Shown here one piece after another: positions 6,749 to 34,088 of a stretch of 64,000 nt of DNA. The notes under the pieces were generated by a model, which was not told the origin of the DNA, ran no database searches, and saw only the letters and a list, made by a program, of their open reading frames with translations. The translations under genes and the position numbers were made by a program. Source of the stretch: Acinetobacter defluvii (GTDB lineage Bacteria; Pseudomonadota; Gammaproteobacteria; Pseudomonadales; Moraxellaceae); NCBI RefSeq assembly GCF_001704615.3, contig NZ_CP029397.2, positions 3,286,001 through 3,350,000 of the forward strand, in the 5' to 3' direction. Within the stretch, counting starts at the first letter, position 1, and every line of letters begins with the position of its first letter.

Positions 6749-7126
6749 TTAGAATGCTGCTTTACTTTTTAAATATTTACTAAAACCTTTAAGCCAAGCA
6801 TTGAGTAGATATAACCATGAAATAAAACTAAAAATGATCCCAATGACGGTACATGCTTTTACCCACAGCATAGAATCCCAATAAAAGAAAATCAAAGGAA
6901 TAAACCACAACGCGGCAAATGCTGCCAAGATCAAAAAAATAATCACGCTACGCATGATCCATAAGGCTTGTGCATGAATCCATACTTCGGCATGTTCAGC
7001 CATAGCAACTTTTCGGGCTAAAAAGTACGAGAAAATAGCGCCAATGATGGTAAATAATGCGAGAAACATAAAGACGTAAGAAGTCGTCATATAACGACGA
7101 TGTTGTTTGAGATTGTCTTGCCCCAT
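6749..7126 (-). CDS. Hypothetical inner-membrane protein
   Basis: I do not recognise this 125-residue protein. It has an N-terminal cytoplasmic stretch with basic residues (HRRYMTTSYVF), then about four hydrophobic segments: residues 15-35, around 50-70, 72-90 and 90-110. It ends in a basic tail (KYLKSKAAF). Similarity in layout to DUF4870/TMEM-type small membrane proteins is possible, but I cannot assign a family. It is on the same strand as dnaJ and 92 bp upstream of it, so it may contribute a read-through transcript. Confidence 0.7.
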   Translation of the reverse strand: MGQDNLKQHRRYMTTSYVFMFLALFTIIGAIFSYFLARKVAMAEHAEVWIHAQALWIMRSVIIFLILAAFAALWFIPLIFFYWDSMLWVKACTVIGIIFSFISWLYLLNAWLKGFSKYLKSKAAF

Positions 7127-25426: not shown

Positions 25427-25969
25427 ATGAAAATCTATATCGTTGTTGGCAGTGTACGTGAAGGACGCACAGCAATTAAAATTGCACGTTGGGCTGAAAA
25501 AACTATTAAAAACTTTGATTACAGCACGGTTCAAACTGAAATTGTGGATTTAAAAGAATGGGATTTACCATTTTTTGCAGGTGCGCATCCGCCACTTTCA
25601 GGTATTTATGACCAACCCAAGCAACAACAATGGGCAGATAAAATCGCACAAGCCAATGCCTTTATTTTTATTAGTCCTGAATATAATCATGGCTATAGCC
25701 CAGTCTTAAAAAATGCATTGGATTATATTGGTAAAGAATGGCGCGCTAAACCTGCAGCATATATCAGTTATGGTTCAACCAATGGCTCTCGGTCAATCGA
25801 CCAAATTCGTCAAGTATGTACACAATTAGGAATGATCGATAGCAATGCGATCATCGAAATTCGCGATATTTCCAAACGTTGTCAAGCAGAGGAGTTTGAG
25901 AGCAATGAATTTGATGAAAAAGCATTAAAAGCTAGCTTTGATAAATTAATTCAATATAGTAATGTTTAA
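25427..25969 (+). CDS. NADPH-dependent FMN reductase-family protein
   Basis: The 180-residue flavodoxin-like protein has the phosphate-binding VVGSVREGRTAIKIARW start, the conserved FISPEYNHGYSPVLKNALDYIGKEW motif and the YGSTNGSRSIDQIR loop. Members reduce FMN, quinones or azo compounds with NAD(P)H. Because the ssu operon in this window has no ssuE, a reductase of this family could in principle supply FMNH2, but its sequence suits a quinone/azo reductase equally well. Confidence 0.85.
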   Translation: MKIYIVVGSVREGRTAIKIARWAEKTIKNFDYSTVQTEIVDLKEWDLPFFAGAHPPLSGIYDQPKQQQWADKIAQANAFIFISPEYNHGYSPVLKNALDYIGKEWRAKPAAYISYGSTNGSRSIDQIRQVCTQLGMIDSNAIIEIRDISKRCQAEEFESNEFDEKALKASFDKLIQYSNV

Positions 25970-25970
25970 T

Positions 25971-25988
25971 TGTACGTAAAAACGTACA
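25971..25988 (+). promoter_or_regulatory. GacA-box-like palindrome upstream of a small RNA
   Basis: TGTACGTAAAAACGTACA is a perfect palindrome with four-base centre. It has the 6-6-6 layout of the Pseudomonas GacA upstream activating sequence TGTAAG-N6-CTTACA, with one symmetric difference per half-site. It lies about 60 bp upstream of the inferred start of the RNA at 26040. A simple stem-loop after the preceding gene is the alternative, but no T-tract follows. Confidence 0.6.
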
Positions 25989-26001
25989 AAAGATGCAGTG
26001 A

Positions 26002-26030
26002 TTGACGCATTTTCAAGTCAAGGGAATTAT
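26002..26030 (+). promoter_or_regulatory. Promoter of the candidate CsrA-binding RNA
   Basis: TTGACG at 26002-26007 is followed after 17 bp by AATTAT at 26025-26030, a weak -10 element consistent with an activator-dependent promoter. TATTCT at 26033 is an alternative -10. Confidence 0.5.
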
Positions 26031-26039
26031 TCTATTCTA

Positions 26040-26178
26040 AAAACATAGGGAACAGGAAGTTTCCAGAACATAAAACAAAAATAATCAAGTTCTCGCATCA
26101 GGACGTGAGGTAAGACAGGAGTTATACCTAAACAACCGATACAAAACAGCTCAATCAGGATGATTGGGCTGTTTTTTA
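26040..26178 (+). ncRNA. Candidate RsmY/RsmZ/CsrB-type CsrA-sequestering small RNA
   Basis: No coding sequence fits this 140-nt stretch. Four consecutive hairpins each present AGGA in the loop: 26048-26064 (GGGAAC-AGGAA-GTTTCC), 26092-26109 (CTCGC, loop with AGGA, GTGAG), 26109-26128 (AGGA tetraloop at 26117-26120) and the terminator 26145-26173 (loop AGGAT). Loop-exposed GGA is the CsrA/RsmA recognition element, and repeated copies define RNAs that titrate CsrA under GacS/GacA control. A GacA-box-like palindrome and a promoter lie just upstream. The start near 26040 is inferred; the end is set by the T-tract at 26172-26177. Confidence 0.72.
26145..26178 (+). terminator. Terminator of the candidate CsrA-binding RNA
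   Basis: AACAGCTCAATC / GATTGGGCTGTT is a 12-bp stem with one G-U pair and loop AGGAT, followed by six T. The loop itself carries a CsrA-type GGA motif. Confidence 0.9.
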
Positions 26179-26307
26179 TTGTCTCTTACATTCTTTTGCA
26201 AAACTTAAGGTATTCAACATTGACTCCTACCACAACGCTACCTAACATCATTTTATAAATATTTTCATATTGGTCGTATTTTGTTGATTCCTCGTTATTT
26301 TCCGAAC

Positions 26308-26859
26308 ATGTTTAAAAGTTTATTAGGCTCTTATTTAAGTACATTAAAAGTTGCGCTGATGGTCAGTACTGTCGTGGTAACAGGTTGTTCCACACTTGGG
26401 GGTGGTTCTATTGAGAAACGGTCAGCCAAACTAGCGCAAGGTATTCAAAAAGCATATTCGGTAGAAAGTAATACTGCAGCCCGTATTGCCCCTATGATTG
26501 TGCAAAATGCAGAACAATATCATGTAGACCCTTTGCTTTTAGCTGCGATGATCCGCCAAGAGTCGAGTTATCGTAGTTATGTTATTTCACCTGCGGGTGC
26601 AGTTGGACTGACACAAGTCATTCCACGCTATTGGCAACAAAGCTGTCAGGGTGATTTATTTGATGAAAATACTAATATTCAGTGTGGTACATATATTTTA
26701 GCCCAATATAATCAATCTGCAGGCAGTTGGAAAAAAGCATTGGCTTATTATAACGTTGGACCGACAGGGTATCAGTCTAGTTGGAAAATGAAACGTCAAG
26801 GAAAAAAATATGCAAGAGAAGTAAAAAAGCATCGTAGTCAGCTAAAAGACGTATTATAA
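26308..26859 (+). CDS. Lytic transglycosylase lipoprotein (SLT domain, MltE-like)
   Basis: This 183-residue outer-membrane lipoprotein cleaves peptidoglycan glycan strands. The signal ends at lipobox VVTGC (Cys27). The SLT domain shows the catalytic Glu in MIRQESSYRS (about residue 85), SPAGAVGLTQVIPRYW and the ALAYYNVGPTGY motif. I chose the ATG at 26308, because the upstream TTG at 26281 would place extra residues before the signal. It is preceded by the candidate small RNA and followed by a bidirectional terminator. Confidence 0.9.
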   Translation: MFKSLLGSYLSTLKVALMVSTVVVTGCSTLGGGSIEKRSAKLAQGIQKAYSVESNTAARIAPMIVQNAEQYHVDPLLLAAMIRQESSYRSYVISPAGAVGLTQVIPRYWQQSCQGDLFDENTNIQCGTYILAQYNQSAGSWKKALAYYNVGPTGYQSSWKMKRQGKKYAREVKKHRSQLKDVL

Positions 26860-28678: not shown

Positions 28679-28685
28679 TTTAAAA

Positions 28686-28800
28686 GCTGGCGATGACTTA
28701 CTCTCACATGGGTAACCCCACACTACCATCAGCGCAAAGAGGTTTCACTTCTGAGTTCGGGAAGGGATCAGGTGGTTCACTCTTGCTATTGTCGCCAGCA
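28686..28800 (-). rRNA. rrf: 5S ribosomal RNA
   Basis: The minus strand starts GCTGGCGACAATAGCAAGAG and ends with AAGTCATCGCCAGC, giving the complementary 5S ends. The roughly 115-nt length and position after 23S agree with 5S. Exact ends are approximate. Confidence 0.95.
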
Positions 28801-28979
28801 AACTGCTTATGATTAATCACTTGGTCTTAATTACGATGCTTTGTGCTTCGATGTGCCTAGCTTTGGTCAAATGAGTTATTAACAGAAATTTATTTGAGTT
28901 GGATATTTTAACTAGCTTTTTCACTAAATCAAGTATTTTGCATTGAATTTATCGAAACATACAACTGTTTGGGTGTTGT

Positions 28980-31872
<2,893 letters not shown>

Positions 31873-31888
31873 ATACAACCCCAAACAG

Positions 31889-32264
31889 TCGTTAATCCCT
31901 ACAAGTAGGATTAAGACAATTTAATAAATATTCATATTTATCAAACCTACAGTTTGTTGTCTGTGCACTTAAGCACTGTACAGCTTCAATCTAAATTCAT
32001 ATACCAAAACGCTTGATTCAGTTTTATCGCTAGTAACTCAATTTCTTTCAAACATTCAAACATGTCACTTGCGTGTCATATTCTTATGTTTAATTGAAAC
32101 GAGTATGAACAATTTATTTCAACTCAAATATATTCTGTTAATGATTAACTACTGCCTCGTCAGCACGTAGTAAACTGTGATAAATCACAGAAATTAATCA
32201 ATTCAATTTTCATCAAATTCATTAATTTCTATAATCTATTTTAGCTCGTACTCTTGAAAGTACT
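31889..32264 (-). other. Spacer between tRNA-Ala and 23S
   Basis: This 376-bp transcribed spacer holds no further tRNA gene or open frame. It contains the outer part of the 23S processing stem at its low-coordinate end. Confidence 0.7.
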
Positions 32265-32340
32265 TGGTGGAGACTAGGAGAGTCGAACTCCTGACCTCCT
32301 GCGTGCAAAGCAGGCGCTCTACCAACTAAGCTAAGTCCCC
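32265..32340 (-). tRNA. alaT: tRNA-Ala(TGC)
   Basis: The 76-nt gene on the minus strand begins GGGGACTTAGCTTAGTTGG, has anticodon TGC in the stem CCTGC-TTTGCAC-GCAGG, a TTCGACTC T-loop and an encoded 3' CCA. It is in the 16S-23S spacer. Confidence 0.97.
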
Positions 32341-32413
32341 AGCTTAAGACCAATATATCTAATTTCCTGCATTCAATACTTAAACTCTCATTCAAATATT
32401 TTGTTAGTCAGAA

Positions 32414-32490
<77 letters not shown>

Positions 32491-32549
32491 TCAGATACAT
32501 CAATGAAGAACAACTTGTTGTGGATTCTTACCAATCGTCAATCTTTCGT

Positions 32550-34088
<1,539 letters not shown>

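Follow-up and report, generated by a model that had tools for sequence, protein, structure and literature searches.

Architecture of the locus

The window, a 64,000-nucleotide stretch of the Acinetobacter defluvii chromosome, carries a predicted small RNA (sRNA) gene between an open reading frame whose product we take to be an FMN-reductase-like protein and a second that presumably encodes a lytic-transglycosylase-like protein (Table 1). An 18-bp palindrome, identified from the consensus of the GacA box, lies upstream of a -10 element, and the predicted transcript ends in an intrinsic terminator. A complete rRNA operon (16S, two tRNAs, 23S and 5S; window positions 28685-34088, minus strand) is found about 2.5 kb downstream of the sRNA.

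Table 1. Coordinates of the sRNA locus and its neighbours in the window
Feature	Position	Strand	Basis and remarks
FMN-reductase-like flanking gene, marks the syntenic chromosomal site	25427..25969	+	Open reading frame; linkage of orthologue and RNA model match
GacA-type box TGTACG-N6-CGTACA (TGTACG-TAAAAA-CGTACA), 18 bp	25971..25988	.	Sequence pattern; palindrome reaches 25970-25989
-10 element TATTCT	26033..26038	+	Family alignment; conserved columns -9 to -2
Predicted sRNA	26040..26178	+	Fold z -6.2; start placed at ~26040-26046, end at the T-run
Hairpin 1, loop AGGAA, candidate CsrA site 1	26048..26064	+	Minimum-energy fold; helix 1 97.5% paired, one two-sided pair
Possible hairpin 2 with AGGA, candidate CsrA site 2	26092..26109	+	Sequence; absent from the minimum-energy fold
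Hairpin 3, loop AGGA, candidate CsrA site 3	26109..26128	+	Minimum-energy fold; 5/7 pairs with two-sided changes
Intrinsic terminator hairpin with GGA in the loop, then T-run, candidate CsrA site 4	26143..26178	+	Minimum-energy fold; 7/13 pairs two-sided, 100% paired
Downstream flanking gene, lytic-transglycosylase-like	26281..26859	+	Open reading frame

The original prediction described this region as a Gac-controlled CsrA-sponge RNA in which each of four hairpins exposes AGGA in its loop. Folding of 26040-26178 yields a structure of -38.5 kcal/mol (z = -6.2) that none of 200 shuffled sequences equals in stability, and the predicted terminator with GGA in its loop is recovered both in this fold and in the family alignment. 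The four AGGA motifs are present, starting at 26054, 26100, 26117 and 26157, but the minimum-energy fold places only three in hairpin loops. The second (26100-26103) falls outside, and its display requires a 5-bp hairpin that competes with adjacent structures. In the genus alignment described below, helix 2 comprises 3 bp with 95% of cells paired and zero two-sided changes, and the AGGA of this site is present in 20/20 aligned copies.

The promoter region likewise agrees in part with the prediction of a -35/-10 pair. The -10 element aligns with its counterparts across the family, which in plasmid copies mostly read TATGAT. There is no normally spaced -35: 25 bp lie between the TTGACG at 26002-26007 and this element, and 20 bp between the same TTGACG and a second, overlapping TATTCT (26028-26033). 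Absence of a normally spaced -35 is common in activator-dependent promoters. The palindrome itself has the GacA-box layout claimed for it and occurs at the same place upstream of the start in most of the family.

A search with Rfam 15 at gathering score returned five matches in the window, all rRNA or tRNA and none at the sRNA locus. Within 25960-26200, the CsrB, CsrC, RsmX, RsmY and RsmZ models gave no match at E values up to 10, a threshold at which three unrelated weak matches appeared. We therefore reject membership of these Rfam families: the locus shares the RsmY/RsmZ layout, as proposed, but is not a recognisable homologue.

A covarying RNA family across Acinetobacter

The A. defluvii genome contains two further relatives, a second chromosomal copy with 79% identity (C9:31649-31796) and a third on the 7173-bp contig C2 that scores 75 bits against the covariance model introduced below. 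The family alignment comprises 20 copies: the window RNA, the second A. defluvii copy, 16 loci from plasmid records (of which NZ_CP077849 is chromosome-sized) and two from 'phage' records that resemble bacterial contigs. In the 27-pair structure given for this alignment, 98.1% of cells pair and 13/27 pairs have two-sided changes; the covariation score is 0.264, whereas shuffles give 0.137 (none of 500 reaches the observed score) and slid controls no more than 0.057. Unaided, RNAalifold recovers helices 1 and 3 and the terminator, not helix 2, again with 13 two-sided pairs. Of the 20 copies, 18, 20, 19 and 19 retain GGA at sites 1 to 4, respectively. Across the genus, stems covary and spacers diverge, with GGA loops and box retained; the lack of conserved GGA loops that the original prediction named as grounds for refutation was looked for and not found.

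These data bear on whether the RNA could instead be a GacA-activated, Hfq-type base-pairing sRNA in which the AGGA repeats pair or mimic a ribosome-binding site and CsrA is not titrated. Some columns of the A/C-rich linker between hairpins 1 and 2 are invariant among the 20 copies, and an Hfq-linked RNA-RNA network is described for A. baumannii in the accessible part of PMC12802169. The linker is nevertheless the most variable part of the RNA, and it is the GGA motifs, in loops closed by covarying stems, that are kept, which is the layout of CsrA sites; we consider a base-pairing role very unlikely.

We built a covariance model, R1, from the 20 aligned copies; the window RNA, being among them, scores 130 bits by construction. 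At E <= 1e-3, R1 matches 147/149 Acinetobacter genomes, A. defluvii among them, evenly drawn from a larger group. The two genomes with no match at this threshold, G049 and G075, are 2.4 Mb in size. Fifteen few-contig genomes yielded 82 matches at E <= 1e-6, with 2-10 per genome, one of the 82 being a duplicate from a contig of two identical halves (G009:C5). This contig (L076; 19982 bases) may represent a 9991-bp plasmid, either dimeric or doubled in assembly. Some copies form tandem arrays, with three in 2.3 kb in A. baumannii DETAB-P16 and four in 2.1 kb in G098. An R1 match lies directly downstream of the reductase orthologue in 36/43 named Acinetobacter loci, a count that excludes L170, from another phylum; the orthologue occurs without a downstream match in the other seven (L156, L161, L164-L167 and L168, where the contig ends inside the gene).

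Outside Acinetobacter, R1 finds only weak matches in Moraxellaceae, with E values of 8e-7 or worse. Eight chosen genomes gave 28 such matches. The best 12 of these are terminators, 11 lacking GGA and one with a single GGA, and none has a box above 6/8 letters. On these matches we reject a wider spread in Moraxellaceae.

CsrA and GacA, which the original prediction presumed, are indeed encoded in Acinetobacter. The A. defluvii genome encodes CsrA and a GacA orthologue that scores 267 bits against the UvrY/GacA model, under its 280-bit cut-off. Orthologues of both proteins are present in 22/22 genomes tested, comprising 13 Acinetobacter and nine other Moraxellaceae, with 58-94% identity for the best GacA match per genome. 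Eight of the nine non-Acinetobacter genomes have no RNA match and one has weak matches only, and G049 and G075 also encode both proteins, so that absence of gacA or csrA is rejected as the reason why the latter two lack the RNA. Since the partners occur in genomes without the RNA, presence of gacA and csrA alone does not predict it.

Conservation of the GacA-type box and the GGA loops

We surveyed the box in 85 copies, the 82 R1 matches and the three of A. defluvii. Upstream, 65/85 copies carry a strict TGTANN-N6-CNNACA whose first letter lies 68-71 nt ahead of the model start. When one mismatch in the 8 fixed letters is allowed, the box stands at the expected place in 81/84 copies (one of the 85 is N-masked). 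After removal of copies with upstream 160 nt at least 80% identical, 56 of the 84 remain; at least 7 of 8 letters are present at -67 to -71 (mostly -69) in 53/56 of these and in 0/1008 control windows taken elsewhere in the same upstream sequences. Median column information upstream is 0.085 bits, against which the outstanding fixed box columns reach 0.66-1.45. As the copies are related, this conservation reflects constraint and not independent origin of the box.

The GGA loops were compared in 50 RNAs, left after the N-masked copy and near-duplicates had been removed from the 85. On average 2.7 GGA per RNA lie within hairpin loops, versus 0.45 in 1000 dinucleotide shuffles, and at least three loop GGA motifs occur in 34/50 copies versus 13/1000 shuffles; 8/50 copies have none or one in the fold. 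Conservation relative to control windows and shuffles excludes a chance origin of the box and GGA loops. We also looked for linked decay of box and GGA sites and did not find it: the three box-less copies still hold 3-4 GGA, no fewer than many copies with a box.

Plasmid copies beside pdif sites

A blastn search of PLSDB with window positions 26023-26184 (E <= 1e-3) found relatives in 239/72,556 records, 238 labelled Acinetobacter and one Klebsiella; query coverage is at least 80% in 155 of the 239, and at least one record is chromosome-sized. We inspected the 16 records of the alignment and plasmid pMSHR_A204. The 'plasmids' NZ_CP077849 (3.66 Mb; one of the 16) and NZ_CP104448 (4.09 Mb) were treated as mislabelled on account of their chromosome-like size. 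The resistance genes tet39 and OXA-24 lie near some plasmid copies.

On the INPHARED records we reject spread through phages. Four 'phage' records there (CAKLQF/CAKLQH) share the label MD-2021a, and the two inspected hold genes of bacterial chromosomes, aconitase in the first and a tRNA with metabolic genes in the second; none of the four was counted as a phage. A 15-base pattern retrieved 68 stretches from IMG/VR, of which R1 matches L228, L221 and L201 strongly and L214 weakly. Two of the three strongly matching viral-labelled stretches have an intact box, and the third is cut off; these stretches may be prophage, plasmid or host flank. In a tree of 100 copies, plasmid and chromosome labels change 8 times versus 26.9 in shuffles, with the groups standing apart; 29/93 inner branches are well supported, and these force at least two plasmid-chromosome changes.

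XerC/D recombination sites of the pdif type were located by layout using the consensus pdif halves. A pdif site in D/C orientation lies upstream, 318-339 nt from the RNA, in 13/15 PLSDB copies and 13/16 other non-chromosomal copies. Removal of the duplicates (the second half of G009:C5, and G135:C6, which at 9388 bases carries the same RNA as the L017 plasmid), applied to the pdif counts only and not to the R1, box or loop-GGA counts, leaves 24/29 distinct non-chromosomal copies with pdif at this distance. Among chromosomal copies the figure is 1/71 (G070:C1:97415; one of 72 masked), chromosomal status being judged by contig, with possible errors in draft genomes, and pMSHR_A204 standing outside the count. 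For the window copy the scan gives just one marginal match of 16 letters, 81 nt downstream, and we attribute it to chance. A looser scan threshold gave 28 hits in 517 kb of shuffled plasmid sequence.

Five of the 29 non-chromosomal copies have no pdif at 318-339: L007, L014, G135:C5, G042:C3:51217 (its site is nearer, at 117) and G000:C2, where 171 nt of contig precede the RNA. By arithmetic, the site of G000:C2 at 137-164 falls at 335 if the contig is circular. This contig, C2 of A. defluvii (L124, 7173 bp), has several pdif-like sites, including 137-164 and 6833-6860, and the pdif spacing fits if it is a circular plasmid; we take its open reading frames to be replication- and mobilisation-like. 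Among 26 aligned pdif-linked copies, many share two elements located between pdif and the GacA box, ~80-300 nt upstream of the RNA: a hairpin resembling a terminator and the inverted repeat TATCC..GGATA.

On pMSHR_A204, the sites found by the scan coincide with the backbone end published in PMC13141974, as given in its accessible text, which supports the scan. The RNA of this plasmid (L239:6965-7102) starts 334 nt from the far pdif edge, inside the higBA2 C module, and the 'empty' D module reported in the accessible part of the same paper is therefore rejected as its location.

A second, inverted pdif follows 6-8 nt after the RNA in L004, L005, L017 (and its twin G135:C6) and G104:C3, and a weaker one 6-11 nt after it in L010 and G135:C4, making six of the 24 copies, to which G000:C2 may be added if its upstream site is joined by circularity; a marginal case, L012, is excluded. 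Between two such sites the RNA stands alone in a ~0.5 kb module, with no CDS inside it in the four annotated cases (L004, L005, L010 and L017). That a few copies are the only visible cargo of a dif module suggests that plasmids carry sponges as exchangeable cassettes.

Two other accounts of the plasmid copies were considered. On ColE1, the Rcd RNA of the cer locus acts in plasmid upkeep at a Xer site, and the near-fixed pdif-RNA distance, together with the conserved inverted repeat between the two, would suit an RNA that serves its plasmid at the adjoining site and does not titrate host CsrA. Box and GGA loops are, however, equally kept in chromosomal copies, 70/71 readable ones having no pdif at that distance, and we saw no link to cell division in this analysis; we regard upkeep as highly improbable. 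Alternatively, plasmid copies may be silent or decaying passengers of dif modules, with chromosomal copies alone at work. A few copies, such as that of pMSHR_A204 and G104:C1:56713-56846, fit this description in having kept box and terminator and lost most GGA sites. They may be decaying, or may be decoys with another role. Against passenger status in general, none of the 15 true PLSDB plasmid copies in the alignment has fewer than three GGA sites or fewer than 7 of 8 box letters. Plasmid copies with pdif upstream also make up 13 of the 20 aligned rows, so that much of the covariation is theirs. We find the passenger account unlikely, and lean modestly towards a reading in which Gac-responsive CsrA sponges travel on Acinetobacter plasmids in the form of exchangeable XerC/D (dif) cassettes. 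Such a non-coding cargo would titrate host CsrA, and perhaps GacA, at a dose set by plasmid copy number.

Discussion

Together, these data support the original interpretation of the locus as a Gac-controlled CsrA-sponge RNA, and judged from sequence the window RNA is very probably a Gac-activated CsrA sponge that works in the manner of CsrB and RsmZ. Once GacS/GacA is switched on, phosphorylated GacA would bind the box and transcription would begin ~65-75 bp downstream. The resulting ~135-nt RNA would present GGA at as many as four sites, with hairpin loops displaying three or four of these, and by binding CsrA dimers would lift CsrA control of mRNAs. Several gene copies per Acinetobacter cell, partly in tandem, may jointly make up the sponge, and plasmids would add copies beside XerC/D recombination sites. 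Because plasmids carry extra copies, the total sponge dose would depend on plasmid content.

RsmX, RsmY and RsmZ of Pseudomonas and CsrB and CsrC of enterobacteria are untranslated RNAs preceded by a GacA/UvrY box, with repeated GGA stem-loops, an intrinsic terminator and sibling copies. The Acinetobacter family has in common with them the palindromic box, the short RNA with repeated stem-loop GGA, the terminator and the siblings, and differs in having no Rfam match, up to ten strong copies per genome, partly in tandem, and plasmid copies beside pdif. RsmY and RsmZ act as sponges, according to the accessible text of PMC9928087. The same text describes RsmQ, a CsrA/RsmA-type protein encoded by plasmid pQBR103, as a plasmid's reach into the host Gac/Rsm network; RsmQ is a protein, whereas Acinetobacter plasmids would carry an antagonist RNA, with an expected effect of opposite sign.

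The original prediction knew of no well-characterised CsrB-type RNA in Acinetobacter. This needs qualification, as CsrA-antagonist sRNAs are already predicted in A. baylyi: Table 2 of PMC5568370, in the part of that paper accessible, gives predicted RsmA-regulating sRNAs at ACIAD0018/0019 and ACIAD2750/2751 of strain ADP1, with reference to an earlier prediction, and the accessible part of PMC12442408 depicts a CsrB-like RNA for A. baylyi with reference to a 2006 prediction. The ADP1 loci share genus and proposed role and are perhaps members of this family, likened by description and not by sequence, and concern one genome. Multi-copy expressed sRNAs are reported for A. baumannii AB5075, including a Group 3 of four members of 128-147 nt (Weiss 2016, PMC5320573); CsrA, GacA and plasmids are absent from the accessible text of that paper, and the likeness is again one of description, as it is for sRNA 13573 in the accessible part of PMC5538643. 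The dif modules of Rep_3/OrfX plasmids in PMC13141974 have pdif sites and C-module geometry in common with ours, and the pMSHR_A204 RNA lies in one of them; the accessible text describes their cargo as genes and open reading frames and leaves RNA unmentioned. Searches of titles and abstract starts in the open-access literature, most subscription papers lying outside this scope, found no plasmid- or dif-borne CsrA sponge and no paper that treats dif modules, sRNA and Acinetobacter together. As far as searched, the plasmid-borne relatives and their pdif linkage are new within the open-access literature.

The accessible part of PMC12802169 calls CsrA essential when A. baumannii grows on rich media, although that of PMC8567240 reports an ATCC 19606 mutant that lacks csrA and has growth defects; CsrA dose should therefore matter. 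In A. baylyi ADP1, csrA has an IS insertion close to its C-terminal end, and an IS-free derivative of the strain is named in the accessible part of PMC11426457. Both CsrA and GacA have been studied in Acinetobacter, and in the texts accessible to us we found no description of a sponge RNA in the genus other than those predicted for A. baylyi. A genus-wide family with exact predicted promoters and candidate binding sites makes this missing link directly testable, and the presence of several copies, some in tandem arrays, may explain why screens of single genes could overlook the sponge. If the plasmid copies work, plasmids, some with the RNA near resistance genes, would alter post-transcriptional control in the host by means of an RNA overlooked by gene-based annotation, and a function would be found for some dif modules with no evident genes. 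Plasmids of Acinetobacter may thus be able to push the regulatory network of their host.
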